Origin: Pseudomonadota bacterium
GTDB taxonomy: Bacteria > Pseudomonadota > Alphaproteobacteria > Rhizobiales > Xanthobacteraceae
Length of the DNA stretch: 22,360 nt
NCBI GenBank assembly: GCA_023390695.1
Contig: JAEWCJ010000193.1
Location: 1 to 22,360, forward strand
Direction of reading: 5' to 3'
In this document: piece after piece, positions 6,811 through 21,186 of the stretch
Numbering within the stretch: position 1 is the first letter of the stretch
How the letters are laid out: the number at the start of each line of letters is the position of its first letter
Program-made: the position numbers and the translations under genes
The notes under the pieces: model-generated
The model's input: the letters and a program-made list of their open reading frames with translations, nothing else
Told to the model about the DNA's origin: nothing
The model's database searches: none

Positions 6811-7479
6811 ATGCCGTATCGCCGCACTGACGCTGTGATCCGCCGGCAGGCGGCCCGCCATGCCCGGATCGTCGATGCCGCCCGGCAGGCGGCCGCTGAG
6901 GGCGGGATGGCGGCCGTCCAGATCGCCCCGGTCGCGGAACGTGCCGGAATCGCGACCGGCACCGTCTATCGTTATTTCCCGTCCAAGACCGAGCTGATCG
7001 CGGCGCTGGTGCAGGCCATCTCGGAACAGGAGATTGCCGCGGTCCGCAATGCGGCCCGTTCGGCGCCCGGTCCGGTCTCGGCGCTGGCCGCCTCCATCGC
7101 GACATTCGCGAGCCGGGCCCTGCGTAGCCGCCGCCTGGCCTGGGCGATCATCTCCGAGCCGGCGGAAGCCGGGATCGAGGAAGCCCGGCTCGAATATCGC
7201 AAGGCGCTGGCCAACGAATGGCGCTCGCGGATCGTGGTGGCGATGCGGGCCGGCCATCTGCCGCAACAGGACGCGGACCTGTCGTCCTTCGCGCTGGTCG
7301 GAGTGCTGTTGGAAGGCCTGCTCGGCCCCCTGGTCCCGGATGCGGGCGACGACCCGGCGCGGATCCGCAACGCAGTGCAGAACCTGACGCTTCTGTCGCT
7401 GCGGGCGCTGGGCGTGAATGATGCGCGCGCGCGCGGCCTCGTGGTGCAGGTGGCGTTGCCCGTCATCGGCGAAGGGTGA
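6811..7479 (+). CDS. TetR/AcrR family transcriptional regulator
   Basis: A 222-residue one-component regulator. The N-terminal DNA-binding domain is clear: RHARIVDAARQAAAEGG, then the helix-turn-helix VAERAGIATGTVYRYFPSKTELI at about 41-63. The C-terminal ligand domain is alpha-helical and not diagnostic. Start ATG 6811 directly follows the 24-bp palindrome with no Shine-Dalgarno, so the transcript is probably leaderless or has a very short leader. The position argues for autoregulation; the ThDP/NIPSNAP operon immediately upstream on the same strand is a possible second target, but no copy of the palindrome is visible in front of that operon. Confidence 0.88.
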   Translation: MPYRRTDAVIRRQAARHARIVDAARQAAAEGGMAAVQIAPVAERAGIATGTVYRYFPSKTELIAALVQAISEQEIAAVRNAARSAPGPVSALAASIATFASRALRSRRLAWAIISEPAEAGIEEARLEYRKALANEWRSRIVVAMRAGHLPQQDADLSSFALVGVLLEGLLGPLVPDAGDDPARIRNAVQNLTLLSLRALGVNDARARGLVVQVALPVIGEG

Positions 7480-14981: not shown

Positions 14982-15138
14982 CATTTTACGGCTCATAATT
15001 TTCAACACTGCGGTGGTTATCCGCCCGGTTCCTCTTGCCAAGGCCATAATCCGGGAGGACGATTGCCTCTCCGGCGTCTGACTTGCGGCCGGAGACAACC
15101 GGCCCTTGCGTCAGCCGCCTTGCAAACAGGAGGCGTCC

Positions 15139-17214
15139 ATGGCGGCAGGGAATGCGAACGGCGTAAACTCCAACGGCACAAGACCGGCGGGTCCCCGGTG
15201 TGTTGCGCTGGTGGGCCCCTTTCAGAGCGGCAAGACGACCCTGCTGGAGGCCATTCTCGCGCGGACCGGCGCGATCCAGCGGCAGGGCAGCGTGGATGCA
15301 GGTTCGAGCGTCGGCGACGCCTCGAAAGAGGCGCGCGATCACCGCATGGGTGTCGAATTGTCCGTCGCCACCACCACCTTCATGGATGAAAGCTACACCT
15401 TCATAGATTGTCCGGGATCGATCGAGTTCATTCATGACATGCGCGCGGCGCTGCCGGCCGTCGATGCGGCCGTCGTCGTCTGCGAGGCGGACGAAAAGAA
15501 GATTCCGCAATTGCAGCTCGTGCTGCGCGAGCTGGAAGAACAGAAGATTCCGCATTTCCTGTTCCTCAACAAGATCGACAAGGCCGACAAGCGGCTGCGC
15601 GAAACGCTGCAATTGCTGCAGCCGGCTTCGCGTCTGCCTTTGCTGCTGCGGCAGATCCCGATCTGGCGCAACGGCATCGTCACCGGCTTCGTCGATCTCG
15701 CGCTCGAGCGTGCGCATGTCTACAAGGAGCATACGGCCTCCGAAGTGATCGAACTGAGCGGCGAGGATCTCGAGCGCGAGAGGACCGCGCGCTTCACCAT
15801 GCTGGAGACGCTGGCCGATCACGACGACGAATTGCTGGAACAGTTGCTGGAGGACATTCCGCCGCCGCGCGACCGGGTGTTCGACGACCTGTCCAGGGAA
15901 TTGCGCGACGGCCAGGTCTGTCCGGTGCTGATCGGCGCCGCCACCCGCACCAACGGCGTGTTGCGGCTGCTGAAGGCGCTGCGGCATGAGGCACCGAATG
16001 TCGAAAGCACCGCGAAGCGGCTGGGCGTGTCCGCGGGGAATGGCGAGACCGTCGCCTATGTGCTGAAGACCTGGCACACCGCGCATGGCGGCAAGATGTC
16101 GGTGGCGCGCATTCTGGCCGGGCAGGCCGGCGACGGCACGACATTCCTCACCCCGGATCGTGAGGCCGGCCGCATCTCCGGCGTGTTCAGGCTGATGGGC
16201 CAGCAGATGGACAAGCGCGGCCCGGCGCAGGCCGGCGAGACCGTCGGGCTCGGCAAGCTGGATTATGCGAGGACCGGCGAAACCCTGACCGCCGGCAAGG
16301 AAGCACATCGGCCGGTTGCCGATGTGATGCCGTATCCGCCGGTCTTGGCGATCGCGGTGTCCGCCGCCGAGCGCAAGGACGACGTGAAACTCGGTCAGGC
16401 GCTGAACAAGATGCAGGAAGAAGATCCATCGATCGTCGTGGTGCATAATCCGGACGCCCATGAGGTCGTGCTCTGGGGGCAGGGCGAGATGCATCTGCGC
16501 GTGGCGGCGGAACGGCTGGAGGACCGCTTCGGTATCAGGATCGAGAAGCGGCGGCCCAGTGTCGGCTACCGCGAAACCATCCGCAAAGCGGTCCAGCAGC
16601 GCGGCCGGCACAAGAAGCAATCCGGCGGACACGGTCAGTTCGGCGATGTCGTGCTGGACATCGCGCCGCTGCCGCGCGGCACCGGCTTCACGTTTGCCGA
16701 GAAGATCACCGGCGGCGTGGTGCCGCGCAATTACATTCCCTCGGTGGAAGAGGGGGTGATCGACGGTCTGAAGGAAGGGCCGCTCGGTTTTCCGGTGGTG
16801 GACGTGTCGGTCACGCTGGTCGACGGCAGCTACCATTCGGTCGATTCGTCGGATCAGGCCTTCCGCACCGCCGGGCGTATCGGCATCGTCGAAGCGCTGC
16901 CGCAATGTCAGCCGGTGCTGCTTGAGCCCATCCACATGGTCGAGATCGTCTGTCCGACCGATTCCACGGCGCGCATGAACGCCATCCTGTCGTCGCGGCG
17001 CGGGCAGATCCTGGGTTTCGATACCCGCGACGGCTGGCCGGGCTGGGATTGCGTGCGGGCGCTGATGCCGGAATCGGAAATCGGCGATCTCATCATCGAG
17101 ATCAGGTCCGGCACCGCCGGCGTCGGCACATTCAGCTTCAAGTTCGATCACATGGCCGAACTGACCGGACGCACCGCCGAGCAGATCGTGGCCGCGCGGC
17201 GTCCGGCGGCCTAG
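15139..17214 (+). CDS. Elongation factor G paralogue with altered GTPase motifs
   Basis: A 691-residue translational GTPase with EF-G architecture: GTPase domain, domain II, domain III (GQGEMHLRVAAERL), domain IV (SGGHGQFGDVVLDI) and domain V. The P-loop reads GPFQSGKTT (26-34) and G4 is NKID (144-147). G3 reads DCPGSIEF (90-97): the catalytic histidine of canonical DTPGHVDF is replaced by Ser94. The switch I RGIT motif is also replaced (HRMGVELSVATTTF). It therefore belongs to the divergent EF-G2-like subfamily, not the str-operon FusA; its task in translation or recycling is not established. ATG 15139 is fixed by AGGAGG five bases upstream. A small GGCCGG/CCGGCC hairpin (15087-15104) lies in the leader. 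Confidence 0.88.
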   Translation: MAAGNANGVNSNGTRPAGPRCVALVGPFQSGKTTLLEAILARTGAIQRQGSVDAGSSVGDASKEARDHRMGVELSVATTTFMDESYTFIDCPGSIEFIHDMRAALPAVDAAVVVCEADEKKIPQLQLVLRELEEQKIPHFLFLNKIDKADKRLRETLQLLQPASRLPLLLRQIPIWRNGIVTGFVDLALERAHVYKEHTASEVIELSGEDLERERTARFTMLETLADHDDELLEQLLEDIPPPRDRVFDDLSRELRDGQVCPVLIGAATRTNGVLRLLKALRHEAPNVESTAKRLGVSAGNGETVAYVLKTWHTAHGGKMSVARILAGQAGDGTTFLTPDREAGRISGVFRLMGQQMDKRGPAQAGETVGLGKLDYARTGETLTAGKEAHRPVADVMPYPPVLAIAVSAAERKDDVKLGQALNKMQEEDPSIVVVHNPDAHEVVLWGQGEMHLRVAAERLEDRFGIRIEKRRPSVGYRETIRKAVQQRGRHKKQSGGHGQFGDVVLDIAPLPRGTGFTFAEKITGGVVPRNYIPSVEEGVIDGLKEGPLGFPVVDVSVTLVDGSYHSVDSSDQAFRTAGRIGIVEALPQCQPVLLEPIHMVEIVCPTDSTARMNAILSSRRGQILGFDTRDGWPGWDCVRALMPESEIGDLIIEIRSGTAGVGTFSFKFDHMAELTGRTAEQIVAARRPAA

Positions 17215-17242
17215 GCACCAGATCATATAGCAGCAAACGAAA

Positions 17243-17267
17243 CGGGCGGGACATCATGCCCCGCCCG
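17243..17267. terminator. Shared terminator between the EF-G paralogue and OYE genes
   Basis: CGGGCGGG (17243-17250) and CCCGCCCG (17260-17267) form a perfect 8-bp stem with a 9-base loop. On the minus strand it is followed by TTTCGTTT, so it is best as an intrinsic terminator for the Old Yellow Enzyme gene; on the plus strand it lies 29 bases after the EF-G stop but lacks a strong T-run. Confidence 0.65.
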
Positions 17268-17301
17268 AAAGCTTGGTTTGTGCTGCGCGCCTTGCCGTGC
17301 G

Positions 17302-18399
17302 TTACGCTTGCAGCGCCGGATAGTCGGTATATCCCTTCTCCTCGCCGGCATAGAAGGTCGCCGGGTCCGCGGTGTTCAGCTCGGCGTTGCGCGCAAAGCG
17401 GATCGGCAGATCGGGATTGGCGAGGAACGGAACACCGAAGGCGACGAGATCGGCCTCGCCGTTCGCAATGGCGGCGTTGCCGGTTTCGGCATTGAAGCCG
17501 CCATTGACGATGTAGGTGCCCTTGAAAATCTTGCGCAGCACCGGCGTGACGCGGTCTTCGGCCGGCGCGACGGGATCGACGACATGCAGATAGCCGATGC
17601 CGCGCTTGCTAAGTTCGCTTGTGAGATAGGAGAACGTGGCCACCGGATCGGAATCGGACATGTCATTGTAGAGATTCTTCGGCGAGATGCGATAGCCGAC
17701 ACGCTCCTTGCCCCACACCTTCACGACGGCGTCGGTGACTTCGAGCGGCAGACGCGCGCGGTTCTCGATCGCGCCGCCATAGGCGTCGGTGCGCTTGTTG
17801 CTGCCGTCGCGGGTGAACTGGTCGAGCAGATAGCCGTTGGCGCCGTGCAGCTCCACGCCATCGAAGCCGGCCGCCTTGGCATTTTCCGCGCCCTTGCGGA
17901 ATTGCTCGACGATGCCGGGGATTTCCTGCAGATCGAGCGCGCGCGGCGTCACCATGTCCTTCGGACCTTGCGCGGTGAAGACGGTGCCTTTGGGTGCGAT
18001 CGCAGAAGGGGCGACCGGCAACGCGCCGCCATGGAAATCCGGATGCGAGATGCGGCCGACATGCCAGAGCTGGGCGAAAATCTTGCCGCTTGCTTTGTGC
18101 ACGGCGTCGGTGATCTTTTTCCAGCCGGCGATCTGATCGGCGGAGTGAATGCCGGGCGTGCGGATATAGCCGACACCCTGCGGGCTGATCTGCGTTCCTT
18201 CGGTGACGATGAGCCCGGCGCTTGCGCGCTGCGCGTAATATTCAGCGGCGAGCGGGTGCGGCACATTGCCTTCGATCGCGCGGCTGCGCGTCATCGGCGC
18301 CATCACCATGCGGTTCGCAAGCTTGAGCTCGCCAAGCGTGTAGGATGATAAAAGCGATGACTGATCGGTACGCGGCGGATTCGAAGTCTGGATATTCAT
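17302..18399 (-). CDS. Old Yellow Enzyme family alkene reductase (NemA-like)
   Basis: A 365-residue FMN-dependent TIM-barrel oxidoreductase. Diagnostic features are NRMVMAPMTRSRA (29-41) at the FMN site, LIVTEGTQI, QLWHVGR (110-116) and the substrate/proton-donor motif HGANGY (His185, Asn188, Tyr190) followed by LLDQF. Such enzymes use NAD(P)H to reduce activated C=C bonds, nitro compounds and quinones, i.e. electrophile detoxification. ATG 18399 has GGAG eight bases upstream. The sequence directly upstream is unusual: a terminator-like hairpin with TTTTT ends only 35 bases before the ATG, leaving no room for a normal separate promoter. Expression may therefore depend on readthrough from the TetR-controlled region further up. 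Confidence 0.93.
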   Translation of the reverse strand: MNIQTSNPPRTDQSSLLSSYTLGELKLANRMVMAPMTRSRAIEGNVPHPLAAEYYAQRASAGLIVTEGTQISPQGVGYIRTPGIHSADQIAGWKKITDAVHKASGKIFAQLWHVGRISHPDFHGGALPVAPSAIAPKGTVFTAQGPKDMVTPRALDLQEIPGIVEQFRKGAENAKAAGFDGVELHGANGYLLDQFTRDGSNKRTDAYGGAIENRARLPLEVTDAVVKVWGKERVGYRISPKNLYNDMSDSDPVATFSYLTSELSKRGIGYLHVVDPVAPAEDRVTPVLRKIFKGTYIVNGGFNAETGNAAIANGEADLVAFGVPFLANPDLPIRFARNAELNTADPATFYAGEEKGYTDYPALQA

Positions 18400-18434
18400 G
18401 ACGGCGCTCCGGAAATGTGAGTGTTACGCATGGC

Positions 18435-18488
18435 AAAAAGTGCCGGGCGGCTTCCCGCGTTATGGGACGACACAGGAACCCGCCCGGC
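18435..18488 (-). terminator. Terminator-like hairpin just upstream of OYE
   Basis: On the minus strand GCCGGGCGG (18488-18480) pairs perfectly with CCGCCCGGC (18450-18442) across a 29-base loop, followed by ACTTTTT (T's at 18439-18435). It would terminate leftward transcription 35 bases before the OYE start codon, either ending a small RNA or acting as an attenuator for the OYE gene. Confidence 0.6.
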
Positions 18489-18489
18489 G

Positions 18490-18636
18490 CAGGCTGTTAG
18501 GGGCAGCCTGGTGGAAATCGGAACACGGGACGGCGTTTGGTCCCGCGGTTTGAAAGAGTTGCACCGGACGGCCCATCGCTAAGGGGGCACGTGGGAGGAG
18601 CCGTCCGGTGCCAACGTGGCGCAGCATCTGCCACGT
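18490..18636 (-). ncRNA. Candidate structured RNA, hairpin array ahead of OYE
   Basis: Four inverted repeats follow each other with little space (minus-strand order): ACGTGGC/GCCACGT (18636-18630 and 18620-18614), GCACCGGACGGC/GCCGTCCGGTGC (18611-18600 and 18572-18561, perfect 12 bp, about 15 with one bulge), CGGGAC/GTCCCG (18545-18540 and 18531-18526) and CAGGCTG/CAGCCTG (18510-18504 and 18496-18490). The array runs into the terminator hairpin at 18435-18488. The 27-base loop of the longest stem begins TCCTCCC and also contains a CCCCC run; another loop is CCCCTAA. Such C/U-rich loops are seen in rhizobial and Rhodobacter anti-Shine-Dalgarno small RNAs. Whether it is a free RNA, a 3' end of the upstream small-gene mRNA, or a leader of OYE cannot be decided here. 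Confidence 0.45.
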
Positions 18637-18664
18637 CATTGCGAAATTCATGCTCCGCGGGATC

Positions 18665-18838
18665 TCACTCGCAGCACAGATGCGGGCGCGGCCCCGCGTG
18701 TTTGCCGATCTGCTGCGCGAGCGACAGAAGCGTTTGCTTGAGCTCGTCGCGGTCGACGCCGTCGGCGTTCATCATCGCGCCGATGATCGGATCGGACAGA
18801 GCTTCGGTCAGGGTCAGGTCGCTGCGGCATGCATTCAT
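18665..18838 (-). CDS. Small protein of unknown function, 57 residues
   Basis: This short frame starts at ATG 18838 with AAGGAAG ending six bases upstream and stops at 18667-18665. The product begins MNACRSDLTLTEALSDPIIG and is predicted to be two or three amphipathic helices (ADGVDRDELKQTLLSLAQQIG) with a C-terminal HLCCE. Codon use is rich in GC at third positions like its neighbours, and the acidic, helical N-terminal part (LTEALSDPII...ADGVDR) resembles short uncharacterised proteins I associate with Hyphomicrobiales; I assign no function. Its position, downstream of the paired TetR operators and upstream of the hairpin array and OYE on one strand, suggests cotranscription. It has three cysteines (4, 55, 56), which is notable beside a cysteine-rich TetR and an electrophile-reducing enzyme. 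Confidence 0.65.
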   Translation of the reverse strand: MNACRSDLTLTEALSDPIIGAMMNADGVDRDELKQTLLSLAQQIGKHAGPRPHLCCE

Positions 18839-19080
18839 CGGTCACTTCCTTCTCGGTCCAGGTCTTGCGCCCTGTCTTGCGTCCAGGTGTTGGCCCCAAG
18901 CCCTCACGTCGGTGGCATTCCCAACCCTGCCGTTGCGGCCAGGATCGAAAGCCCCAACCGGTCTCCGCCCGACGGTCCCTGTGGCCTTTCCGGTCAGGGT
19001 CCTTGTGTCCGGCAGAATCTTGCCCATGGTTATTTCCGGCCGCTTGGCTGGAGGGTTTCCGCATGGACATCCCTCGAAAG
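18839..19080. other. Leader/promoter region of the small gene, no supported gene
   Basis: Several overlapping open frames cross this stretch on both strands, but their codon use is atypical (many AGG, AGA, GGA codons) and none has a good ribosome binding site. It is probably an untranslated leader of the leftward transcript. A mirrored arrangement of the short words TCCAGGT and TCTTGCG occurs at 18857-18888. Confidence 0.45.
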
Positions 19081-19131
19081 GGGTGTTACCGGTCAGTAAC
19101 GTGATTACATAGGTACTGACCGGTAACACCC
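19081..19131. promoter_or_regulatory. Paired operators: 18-bp perfect inverted arms before tetR
   Basis: GGGTGTTACCGGTCAGTA (19081-19098) is repeated as its exact reverse complement at 19114-19131, with a 15-base spacer. Each arm contains TTACCGGTCAGTA(A), itself close to the ACTGACCGGTCAGT-type palindrome used by many TetR repressors, so two dimers could bind. The right arm ends on the base before the ATG of the TetR gene. The AT-richer spacer probably holds -10 elements of one or both divergent promoters. Confidence 0.8.
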
Positions 19132-19770
19132 ATGTCAAGTGCTAAGATGGACTTGATGGCTAAGATGACGACTGCTGCAAAAACGCCCGCTGAAACGGAC
19201 AGCGCCCAGCGCCTGCCGCCGCGCGAACGCATCTTGGCGGCCGCCTGCGATCTTTTTTATCGCCAGGGCATCCGCGCCGTCGGCGTCGAGGCAATCGCGG
19301 AAGCGGCCGGCACCAACAAGATGACGCTCTACCGCCACTTCGCGTCGAAGGACGAGCTGGTCGCCGAGTATCTGCGCCGGCTGTGGGGCGAGAAGGATGC
19401 CTTGTGGGAGAAGCTGTGCACGCAGCATCCCTCCGATCCCCGCGCGCAGTTGCAAGGCTGGTTGCTTGAAGCGGCGGCGCAGGTGACCGACCCCACCTCG
19501 CGCGGCTGTGCCATCGCCAACGCGGCAGTCGAATTGCCGGAAAAGCATCACCCCGCACGCTGCGTCATCGAACAATGCAAGCAGAATTCGCGCGCGCGTC
19601 TCGCCGAACTCTGTCGCGCGGCCAAAATTGAAGAGCCGGAGCTGCTGGCCGATCAGCTTTTCATGCTGCTGGAAGGTGCTCTGGTCTGCACGCAGGCCAC
19701 CGGACGCAATGGGCCCGCCGATCAGTTCGTGCGCGCAGGACAGGCGCTGATCGACGCGCATTCGCGCTGA
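19132..19770 (+). CDS. TetR/AcrR family regulator, cysteine-rich, probable OYE-locus repressor
   Basis: A 212-residue regulator. The DNA-binding domain runs from RERILAAACDLFYRQGIRAV through the helix-turn-helix AIAEAAGTNKMTLYRHFASK (55-74). The ligand domain contains the SRGCAIANAAVELP segment (123-136) typical of a TetR subfamily often found beside reductases. It has seven cysteines (39, 96, 126, 144, 149, 161, 186), many for this family, which is compatible with NemR-like sensing of electrophiles; that is inference. ATG 19132 is taken because it directly abuts the operator; no Shine-Dalgarno is present and ATG 19147, 19156 or 19165 are in-frame alternatives. It is divergent from the small gene/OYE unit. 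Confidence 0.88.
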   Translation: MSSAKMDLMAKMTTAAKTPAETDSAQRLPPRERILAAACDLFYRQGIRAVGVEAIAEAAGTNKMTLYRHFASKDELVAEYLRRLWGEKDALWEKLCTQHPSDPRAQLQGWLLEAAAQVTDPTSRGCAIANAAVELPEKHHPARCVIEQCKQNSRARLAELCRAAKIEEPELLADQLFMLLEGALVCTQATGRNGPADQFVRAGQALIDAHSR

Positions 19771-20019
19771 CGCAAGGGCAGCGACACTCCGTCGCGTACG
19801 CCTCCGCTGTGCCCGGCATGCCTCTGGCGAAGAGGTCGAACCTAGCAAGTTGAATCAGATTGCAAATTTCTGACGGTGATCGCGGCGCTGCACGTCGTCG
19901 TGTGAATGTTTGCCGGAGGCTGCTGCGCGGTTGCAAGATACCGCAGCGTGCGCGGCATTGTCGGAGCTGTGCAGCCCGCGATAAAGCGGTGCGTCATGCG
20001 TGCGAATGTTGTTGCAGAC

Positions 20020-20162
20020 AAGAAAATGCCGGGCCGTGGGGGCGGCCCGGCGCTTAGTCTTTGCCGGCGCGGGAGGCCGGCAGTCACCTTCCAGAGGGGA
20101 ACCACTGATTGCGAGAAGACCGCGATCTGGGAGGATTCGAAGACCGCCCACAACCAGTGCCG
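20020..20162 (-). ncRNA. Candidate anti-Shine-Dalgarno small RNA
   Basis: On the minus strand four hairpins follow in order. The first is GCGGTCT/AGATCGC (20147-20122, 7 bp with one G-U) with a 12-base loop ending TCCTCCC. The second is a weak TTCC/GGAA (20101-20089) with loop CCTCT, flanked by CAGT/ACTG. The third is TGCCGGC/GCCGGCA (20082-20062) with loop CTCCCGC. The fourth is GCCGGGCC/GGCCCGGC (20051-20028) with loop GCCCCCAC, followed by ATTTTCTT as an intrinsic terminator. Every loop is C/U-rich, the hallmark of alpha-r14 and 'cuckoo' type small RNAs of alphaproteobacteria that pair with ribosome binding sites. A CATACT hexamer at 20174-20169 could be the -10; the 5' end is therefore only a guess. 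Confidence 0.5.
20028..20051 (-). terminator. Intrinsic terminator of the candidate small RNA
   Basis: GCCGGGCC and GGCCCGGC form a perfect 8-bp stem with an 8-base loop. On the minus strand ATTTTCTT follows at once (20027-20020). It could also end readthrough from lysR, whose stop codon is about 240 bases upstream. Confidence 0.65.
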
Positions 20163-20292
20163 TGATGAAGTATGGGGACTTGCGTTGTCGAAAGCTACGC
20201 AATGAAGCGAATGTCAGCCATGCGACGTCCGCAAGTCTGATGCGGAATCGCGTTTTCGTTTCGGATTGTGCAAAGCGAAAATCGATTCTGCG

Positions 20293-21186
20293 CTAGAAGC
20301 TCCAGCGCTGCGCTTTCGAGACGAGAAAGTCGCGGAATACCTGCACGCGTGCGACGGACTTCAGTTCCTCCGGATAGACGAAGTAAGCGTCGAGTGCGAT
20401 CGGATCGTTCTGCGCGAGCAATTGCACGAGGCCGTGATTTTCCTCGACCAGATAATCCGGCAGCAGCGCGACGCCCAGTCCGCGTTCGCAGGCGCGCAGC
20501 AGGCCGAGGATGTTGTTGAGCACCAGCATCGGCGTGCGGGGATTCTTGCCGTCGCGGCCAACTTCGAGAAGCCAGTTGCGATTCTGCAGGAAGGTCGGAA
20601 TGTTGCTGCCGCCGAGCTGCAGGATGCGGTGCTCGTCGAGATCTCTGATTTCGCGCGGCGTGCCGAAACGCTTGAGGTATTCCGGCGAGGCGTAGGCGTG
20701 GAAATGCACGGAGAACAATTTGCGCTGGATCAGGTCCGGCTGTGTCGGCTGACGCAGGCGGATTGCGACGTCGGCCTCGCGCATGGCGAGATCGAGCTCT
20801 TCGTCGGTGGTGATCAGCGAAATGCGGATATCCGGATACAGATCGATGAACTCGCCGAGCTTCGGCGTCAGCCAATGCGTGCCGAGTCCGACCGTGGTGG
20901 TGACCTTGAGATCGCCGTTCGGCCGCTCGCGGCTGTCGGTCAGCTTCGCGCGCGCCGATTCCAGCTTCATGAAAACATCATGTGCGGTGCGGTACAGCAA
21001 TTCTCCCTGTTCGGTGAGAATGAGTCCGCGCGCATGGCGATGGAACAGCGACACCGACAGCGCCTGTTCGAGCGCGCTGACCTGACGCGACACCGCTGAT
21101 TGCGACAGCCCGAGCTGCTCGCCGGCATGCGTGAAGCTGCCGGCCTCGGCGGCGGCGTGAAAAACCTTCAGCTTGTCCCAGTCCAT
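20293..21186 (-). CDS. LysR family transcriptional regulator
   Basis: A 297-residue LysR-type regulator. The winged helix is at the N-terminus (FHAAAEAGSFTHAGEQLGLSQ, then SAVSRQVSALEQ, residues 9-41), followed by the coiled linker and a type 2 periplasmic-binding-like effector domain from about residue 88 (DLKVTTTVGLGTHWLTPKLG). The late GLGVALLPDYLVEE motif is typical of the GcvA-like branch. ATG 21186 is preferred; GGAA lies about seven bases upstream, whereas ATG 21210 has none. Its start is 33 bases past the trxB stop on the same strand, so the two are probably one operon. That is unusual for LysR genes, which mostly stand divergent from their target. Confidence 0.9.
   Translation of the reverse strand: MDWDKLKVFHAAAEAGSFTHAGEQLGLSQSAVSRQVSALEQALSVSLFHRHARGLILTEQGELLYRTAHDVFMKLESARAKLTDSRERPNGDLKVTTTVGLGTHWLTPKLGEFIDLYPDIRISLITTDEELDLAMREADVAIRLRQPTQPDLIQRKLFSVHFHAYASPEYLKRFGTPREIRDLDEHRILQLGGSNIPTFLQNRNWLLEVGRDGKNPRTPMLVLNNILGLLRACERGLGVALLPDYLVEENHGLVQLLAQNDPIALDAYFVYPEELKSVARVQVFRDFLVSKAQRWSF

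Follow-up and report, generated by a model that had tools for sequence, protein, structure and literature searches.

Why should a gene for a small protein and a series of stable hairpins lie between the operators of a TetR-family repressor gene and the Old Yellow Enzyme (OYE) gene that these operators would control? The question is raised by positions 17,302–19,770 of a 22,360-nt stretch of DNA (hereafter the window; forward strand) from a Pseudomonadota bacterium of the Xanthobacteraceae (assembly GCA_023390695.1, contig JAEWCJ010000193.1). Pairs of TetR and OYE are well known, nemR-nemA of enterobacteria being an example. An earlier note on this DNA described a TetR–OYE locus into which a small protein and structured RNA are inserted, and the description is accurate: from TetR along the minus strand we find a TTGACA box, two operators, a leader of about 245 nt, a 57-codon gene, hairpins A and B, an extra hairpin, hairpins C and D, a run of five T (T5), a Shine–Dalgarno (SD) sequence and the OYE gene (Table 1). 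Judged by comparison with relatives, this arrangement is a real, conserved variant of the TetR-detoxification operon, and its most striking part is the small-protein family and the bond of this family to one TetR clade.

A small-protein family under purifying selection

The small open reading frame (ORF) is preceded by an SD-like AAGGAAG. A search of 5.8 billion proteins gave 18 matches including itself, that is, 17 homologues with 64–84% identity, and because the nonsynonymous rate (dN) was below the synonymous rate (dS) in 17 of the 17 pairs computed, the 57-codon gene is, by this codon comparison, under purifying selection. At E ≤ 0.001 a profile of the close homologues matched 46 of 397 genomes of the order and 43 of 391 of the family, mostly weakly, and 7 of the 8 genomes of the genus to which the relative L001, a metagenome-assembled Pseudorhodoplanes sp., belongs; a profile of 27 divergent members gave 859 matches. 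Among the 120 of these 859 that were listed, every named protein is hypothetical or uncharacterized and none carries a Pfam domain. The 57-aa protein itself matched zero Pfam or NCBIfam families at E ≤ 1, and so not DUF1127 either, in agreement with the earlier note, which called it not DUF1127-like.

The family shares the core LTLxEALxDPLIRxVMxADGVD, in which all 27 members agree at D16, P17, A25 and D26 (numbered as in the window), and many members, not all, end near one or two cysteines, several being without a C-terminal cysteine. AlphaFold2, given 18 sequences, predicted three helices and a loose tail with moderate confidence (mean predicted local distance difference test 74.6, predicted template modelling score 0.50). 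The predicted fold had 0 PDB matches at E ≤ 0.001 in a structure comparison, and a sequence search against solved structures gave nothing below E 1.1. A viral or mobile origin was considered and rejected, the search of viral_contigs having confirmed no relative. A further ORF in the leader, between the operators and the small gene, was likewise rejected: frames that stay open up to the small-ORF start occur in some loci, but in the window and in L032 they are short or closed. In the window, the 3' end of the small ORF can pair with itself (18663–18724, minus strand; a 14-nt inverted repeat, 79%), a feature that by eye is not retained in L001.

One arrangement with changing partner genes

We compared 61 loci, all selected for the small ORF: the window, L001, L003–L060 and L061, with L002 dropped as a duplicate of L001. 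The genome searches had given 47 and 46 match rows, 17 and 16 of which yielded no locus; G544 was later included as L061, and G088, G122, G151 and G181 were reached through the TetR search described below. The order TetR, operators, small ORF, hairpins and OYE recurs in L001, which is the sole locus from genome_contigs, and in L032. A TetR alignable to that of the window is present in 42 of the 61 loci, which is a lower bound since the flanks were 1.5 kb or ended with the contig; the upstream sequence is only 117 nt in L061, which was left out of the TetR scan, and 68 nt in L050. In L060 the twin operator, the small ORF and OYE are present, and no TetR of this kind was detected within the fetched flank.

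Partner genes, assigned by local search, clustering and Pfam, differ between loci. OYE follows the small ORF in 15 of 61 and precedes it in three (L036, L042 and L040, the last with a glutathione S-transferase (GST) gene downstream), while a flavoenzyme of the NAD(P)H-quinone/azo type precedes it in five (L034, L037, L041, L056 and L057; Flavodoxin_2 by Pfam in L041 and L057). A resistance-nodulation-division (RND) pump gene follows it in 17 loci and precedes it in three (L038 by Pfam, L053 and L059 by clustering with L038). TetR without a recognised partner was found in 7 of 61, and neither TetR nor such a partner in 11 of 61. In L004, L009, L010 and L039 the small ORF seems to be the sole product, because the next Pfam-matched gene is convergent. 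A quick tree of the 42 TetRs separates a redox-enzyme side from an RND side (99% in the SH-like approximate likelihood-ratio test), each including loci without a recognised partner, and the partner type changes seven times on this tree, the minimum possible being four. Since the small protein stays while the partner changes, we judge from these gene neighbourhoods that its role lies in the regulatory response or in a general thiol function and not with one enzyme.

The small ORF was also seen to overlap or abut the RND pump gene in L003, L005–L007, L012–L017, L019, L020, L022, L023, L026, L028 and L029, and in L019 the two lie within one open frame. As in TetR-controlled RND operons, a TetR gene stands beside the pump gene there, the TetRs belonging to a sister clade with the same operators. 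To our knowledge this small protein has not been described in an RND operon, and among the papers listed by our literature search on RND and TetR in Bradyrhizobium there was none. Among the entries listed, literature searches on TetR/OYE/small protein, TetR/RND/Bradyrhizobium and TetR/antirepressor/small protein did not show the arrangement in titles or the starts of abstracts, which does not prove that it is undescribed.

TetR repressors and their predicted operators

The earlier note had pointed to two perfect inverted operator arms. The arms, GGGTGTTACCGGTCAGTA and TACTGACCGGTAACACCC at 19081–19098 and 19114–19131, are indeed perfect across 18 nt, and an inverted-repeat listing gives a longer 26-nt pair at 88%; it is their inversion that proved not to be special. 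Each arm represents one copy of a near-palindrome of 16 bp, GTTACYGRYCRGTAAC, and in relatives the two operators are found in either relative orientation, and therefore the inverted pair is best described as two predicted binding sites, with no special role as one long inverted repeat. With up to two mismatches, the motif occurs upstream of the small ORF in 46 of 61 loci, downstream in none, and in 6 of 1220 mononucleotide-shuffled upstream stretches. Of the 42 loci printed, 40 have TTGAC ahead of the first operator and two (L023 and L034) do not. Because the −35-like box of this divergent promoter falls inside the first codons of the TetR ORF, the annotated TetR start may lie too far upstream. 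None of the full texts searched for five 13-nt operator strings contained any of them, a negative that again does not prove absence.

When 199 genomes were searched with a TetR profile, 34 matches and 30 loci were obtained. Because the 13 best of the 30 loci all have the small ORF and the 17 lower-scoring ones have none within the fetched flanks, the search points to the small ORF as characteristic of a single TetR clade inside a wider TetR-operator family, although the profile was built from small-ORF loci and the result is partly circular. At least one operator is still present in 13 of the 17; the loci L094–L103 and L106–L108, with related TetRs, one or two 16-bp operators and no small ORF within the flanks, represent the wider family.

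The TetR resembles NemR in standing beside an OYE that may be of the N-ethylmaleimide-reductase type and in carrying cysteines that could sense electrophiles: C126 and C161 are present in 41 of the 41 aligned homologues with a letter there, one further row being truncated. The present locus differs from nemR-nemA in being divergent, with twin 16-bp operators and a small-protein gene and hairpins in between. The window TetR scores under the cut-off of every model among the 25 of 26 NCBIfam matches listed (best, NF008647 and NF047866, 46 bits against cut-offs of 267 and 240), a comparison in which the presence of a NemR model in the library was unchecked and no direct comparison with NemR was made. 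The OYE scores 382.5 bits against the N-ethylmaleimide reductase model NF007899, under the cut-off of 403. As for NemR, an electrophile or quinone signal is plausible for the present TetR, because of C126 and C161 and because the partners include OYE, quinone/azo reductase and, in L040, GST.

A conserved hairpin pair after the small ORF

The 265 nt from the small-ORF stop to the OYE start have a predicted folding energy of −120.3 kcal/mol (z −5.45), which 0 of 200 shuffles equalled. A similar z of −5.2 was obtained for the stretch from operator to small ORF (18839–19131, operator arms included), but most of that sequence is poorly conserved. After the small-ORF stop codon lie hairpins A and B, with GC-rich stems and C-rich loops; across loci the stems of A are CGUGGC..GCCACG or CCGCGG..CCGCGG and that of B is GCCGGACGG..CCGUCCGGC. 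In 20 of 20 loci the A+B stretch is predicted to be more stable than the mean of its shuffles (z −1.6 to −5.9). In an alignment of 20 B hairpins (A5), cut by hand at the stems, 99.0% of cells are paired, against 17–46% when the partners are slid by 1–3 columns, double changes are seen in nine cells, where shuffles give 1.6, and none of 500 shuffles reaches the covariation score. RNAalifold on 16 A+B elements (alignment A4, omitting L033, L039, L046 and L060) gave 16 pairs, eight of them with double changes, hairpin A being imperfectly aligned there. The comparison with related loci for which the earlier note had called thus finds conserved stems with compensatory changes; absence of conservation was not seen. 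Hairpins C and D are apparently a duplicate of A and B in the window, to judge from their sequence.

A model of the element (R1) was run on 49 of the 61 loci (omitting L007, L009, L011, L013, L015, L018, L019, L021, L024, L025, L026 and L031) and matched 20 of them in the sense direction at E ≤ 0.01, including four outside its building set (L033, L037, L039 and L060). It matched 14 of the 15 loci in which OYE follows the small ORF and none of the 12 RND loci given to it. In all but one of the 20 matched loci, 19 in number, the hairpin pair lies after the small ORF. A REP-like (repetitive extragenic palindromic) repeat or common terminator stem was considered and rejected: the exact stem pattern occurs once each in five of the eight genus genomes, the reversed control in none of the eight, and the pattern is the element itself in G500 and G516 and lies elsewhere, with other loops, in G544, G482 and G431. 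At E ≤ 0.1, R1 matched seven of these eight genomes, the sole match of G482 being weak and away from its small ORF.

Signals before the OYE gene and a proposed mechanism

A run of at least four T lies within 10 nt of hairpin B in 9 of 20 loci. A U-run of at least four stands directly before OYE in 7 of the 15 small-ORF–OYE loci, after B in six and after D in the window, and B is followed by T4–T6 also where the small ORF comes last (L036, L042) or is seemingly alone (L039). The hairpin pair is thus most likely the small gene's own terminator-like 3' structure, leaky, with OYE added or kept behind it, because in 19 of 20 loci it is found after this gene, even where the gene is last or seemingly alone. 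Because a U-run precedes OYE in 7 of 15 loci only, termination is probably partial and varies between loci. The T5 terminator-like hairpin reported by the earlier note is present in the window as hairpin D and T5, but in L001 and L032 hairpin D is not followed by a T-run, and a general dependence of OYE expression on antitermination, which the note had raised as a possibility, is not supported. The same note had named a strong independent OYE promoter at 18400–18434 as a finding that would speak against its proposal; a sigma-70-type scan of 17200–20300 found none, which is weak evidence since the TTGACA promoter at the operator, although conserved, went undetected too. The mean unpaired probability computed around the OYE SD is 0.37–0.61 over the 15 loci, lowest (0.37) in the window; consistent masking of the OYE ribosome-binding site was not found across these loci, and on these folding predictions SD masking is not a shared feature, though it may occur in the window.

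We consider it probable, with some reserve, that the locus is a conserved stress operon with TetR repression, the small protein first, a leaky hairpin terminator, and OYE expressed by read-through and/or from processed mRNA. TetR would bind the two GTTACYGRYCRGTAAC copies beside the TTGAC-type promoter and keep the transcript of the small ORF and OYE off. The small gene would carry its own 3' structure, the GC-rich, intrinsic-terminator-like pair A and B, and OYE, lying behind the hairpins, would be reached via read-through and/or processed mRNA, so that release of the repressor would lead to abundant mRNA of the small protein, possibly together with a stable hairpin RNA, and to a smaller amount of OYE. 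It is possible, and we offer it tentatively, that the small protein is a dedicated partner of the TetR clade, for example an antirepressor or thiol co-sensor, made first and in excess because its own hairpin terminator would hold down the enzyme gene that follows, within a feedback circuit that is reused with OYE, quinone/azo reductase and RND genes across Hyphomicrobiales. In such a circuit the small-protein cysteines and the two invariant cysteines of TetR would together read quinone or electrophile stress.

Several observations weigh against this leaky-terminator operon and should be considered together. The linkage to TetR was measured within a set selected for the small ORF, and the 17 lower-scoring TetR loci mentioned above lack it within their flanks. 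The U-run is missing in 8 of the 15 small-ORF–OYE loci, the nearest relatives L001 and L032 among them, and termination may be weak or absent there; a terminator scan with a loop limit of 8 nt listed neither D nor any other minus-strand site in 18400–18660. The OYE SD is paired in the minimum free energy (MFE) structure of the window, with non-conserved sequence outside the conserved hairpins. Cutting the B hairpins by hand favours pairing, and two of the five measures of B do not rise above the shuffles, because 6 of its 11 stem pairs are invariant across the 20 loci: three pairs have a double change against 1.3 in shuffles (reached by 27 of 500), and further pair types number six against 6.3 (reached by 423 of 500). 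Sequence conservation of the stems goes beyond what a plain terminator would require. R1 left L046 unmatched among the loci with OYE after the small ORF, together with L040, where OYE is upstream, and four of the five quinone-reductase loci (L034, L041, L056 and L057); and in L037 the hairpin pair stands before the small ORF, between it and the quinone/azo reductase.

Alternative explanations

Could the hairpins act in trans, as small RNAs (sRNAs) of the cuckoo, CcsR or alpha-r14 sort, which would be released by processing from the 3' part of the small-protein mRNA and direct their C-rich loops to ribosome-binding sites? The layout is similar, as ccaF1–CcsR loci consist of a small ORF followed by several sRNA units (PMC10253847), and ccaF1–CcsR, CIN1, cuckoo and alpha-r14 share with our locus a small-protein gene before several hairpins, an alphaproteobacterial host, a stress operon and C-rich loops. 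CCUCC was found in 11 of 20 elements against 5.9 expected, and the loop of B in the window contains CUCCUCCC. However, alpha-r14 RNAs have hypervariable stems and an anti-SD motif in all loops (PMC7143759); here the stems, not the loops, are conserved, CUCCUCCC occurs in 2 of 20 elements, the adjacent small protein has no match to DUF1127, the domain of its counterpart in CIN1/ccaF1 loci, and an enzyme gene often follows. Rfam gave 0 matches in the window at the gathering score, the permissive matches being far below their cut-offs (best, 28.6 bits against 52.5). The parallel to CcsR/CcaF1 drawn in the earlier note therefore does not extend to membership, and we regard a trans-acting role as rather unlikely. 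Regulated attenuation or antitermination, in which passage of polymerase beyond the T5 hairpin and into OYE is governed by a factor or by small-ORF translation, would fit the hairpin with T4–T6 directly before OYE in 7 of 15 loci and the OYE start within about 40 nt of the T-run, which leaves little room for a promoter after the hairpin. The loss of the T-run in L001 and L032 is against it, as are hairpins that also end operons and follow solitary small ORFs; no alternative antiterminator pairing was seen, no dedicated search having been made, and this possibility seems to us distinctly unlikely.

The remaining explanations are still less probable. In the copper system cutF-cutO (PMC9973294) stalling at an arrest peptide opens a stem-loop that otherwise hides the ribosome-binding site of the enzyme gene downstream, and by this example the cysteine-bearing C-terminus of the small protein might stall the ribosome under stress and open a hairpin hiding the OYE ribosome-binding site. 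The small ORF does end in cysteines (CCE) upstream of an intercistronic stem-loop and an oxidoreductase gene, and the paired OYE SD of the window would suit such a switch. Across loci, however, this SD lies outside the conserved hairpins, with a neighbourhood 37–61% unpaired and no consistent sequestration, and the small ORF varies in its operon position, standing after the enzyme in eight OYE/quinone-reductase loci and seemingly alone in others. It is moreover the core of the family that is conserved, not the tail, several members lacking a C-terminal cysteine, and by eye we saw neither an export signal nor a Pro-rich stalling tail; an arrest peptide is thus very unlikely. That the locus is an ordinary nemR-nemA-type pair, with the small ORF and hairpins incidental, would agree with the fact that TetR–OYE pairs are well known, but purifying selection on the small ORF, its 859 family matches and compensatory changes in the hairpins across divergent loci make this highly improbable.

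Features of the locus and its surroundings

The coordinates of the features are collected in Table 1; the ATG of OYE (18399) lies about 35 nt past the T5 of hairpin D.

Table 1. Features of the TetR–small-protein–OYE locus, in window coordinates
Feature	Positions	Strand	Evidence
TetR-family repressor gene	19132–19770	+	PF00440, E 1.2e-17
TTGACA, −35-like box of the predicted promoter serving small ORF and OYE	19138–19133	−	TTGAC conservation in relatives
Predicted operator 1, GTTACYGRYCRGTAAC type	19112–19127		motif counts across loci
Predicted operator 2, motif identical in type to operator 1	19085–19100		motif counts across loci
Small-protein gene, 57 codons, MNACRSDLTLTEALSDP...LCCE, unnamed family	18665–18838	−	homologues, profile matches, dN below dS
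Hairpin A, GACGUGGC...GCCACGUU	18613–18637	−	folding and comparison with relatives
Hairpin B, GCACCGGACGGC...GCCGUCCGGUGC, loop with CUCCUCCC and GCCCCC	18561–18611	−	stem covariation, model R1
Extra hairpin, CGCGGGACC...GUCCCGUG, in the window	18524–18552	−	stretch missing from L001, sequence different in L032
Hairpin C, CAGGCUGCCCCUAACAGCCUG	18490–18510	−	present in L001 and L032, loop one C shorter there
Hairpin D, B-like, probable tandem copy	18442–18490	−	R1 match 18436–18518, E 0.01
T5 tail 3' of hairpin D	18435–18439	−	sequence; missing after D in L001 and L032
GGAG, Shine–Dalgarno of OYE	18408–18411	−	sequence
Old Yellow Enzyme/NemA-like alkene reductase	17302–18399	−	PF00724 (Oxidored_FMN), E 4.6e-79

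An EF-G-like GTPase gene (15106–17214, plus strand; NF009379, 1032.9 bits) is convergent with OYE in the window, and L001 has an ORF of similar size in this place. A second TetR-family gene, at 6811–7479 (plus strand), is more distant from the TetR of 19132–19770. Several genomes of the genus have a second, weak R1 match in an intergenic stretch (L068, L070–L073, L075; L069), near ORFs that by eye, in all of these except L069, we take to be methylmalonyl-CoA-epimerase-like and/or prolyl-tRNA-synthetase-like. In L069–L071 a B-like hairpin with a CCCCUCCCCC-type loop is seen, with a T-run in L069 and L070; by sequence these elements look like a terminator with a C-rich loop, and may be terminators or sRNAs.

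Implications

With this arrangement an unnamed small-protein family gains a clear genomic home, a predicted operator and promoter, and a predicted stress class. The constancy of one small protein with one TetR clade, while the enzyme or pump varies, suggests that the small protein takes part in the regulatory response, and the conserved hairpin pair between the small gene and the enzyme gene may have an effect on the stoichiometry of the operon.

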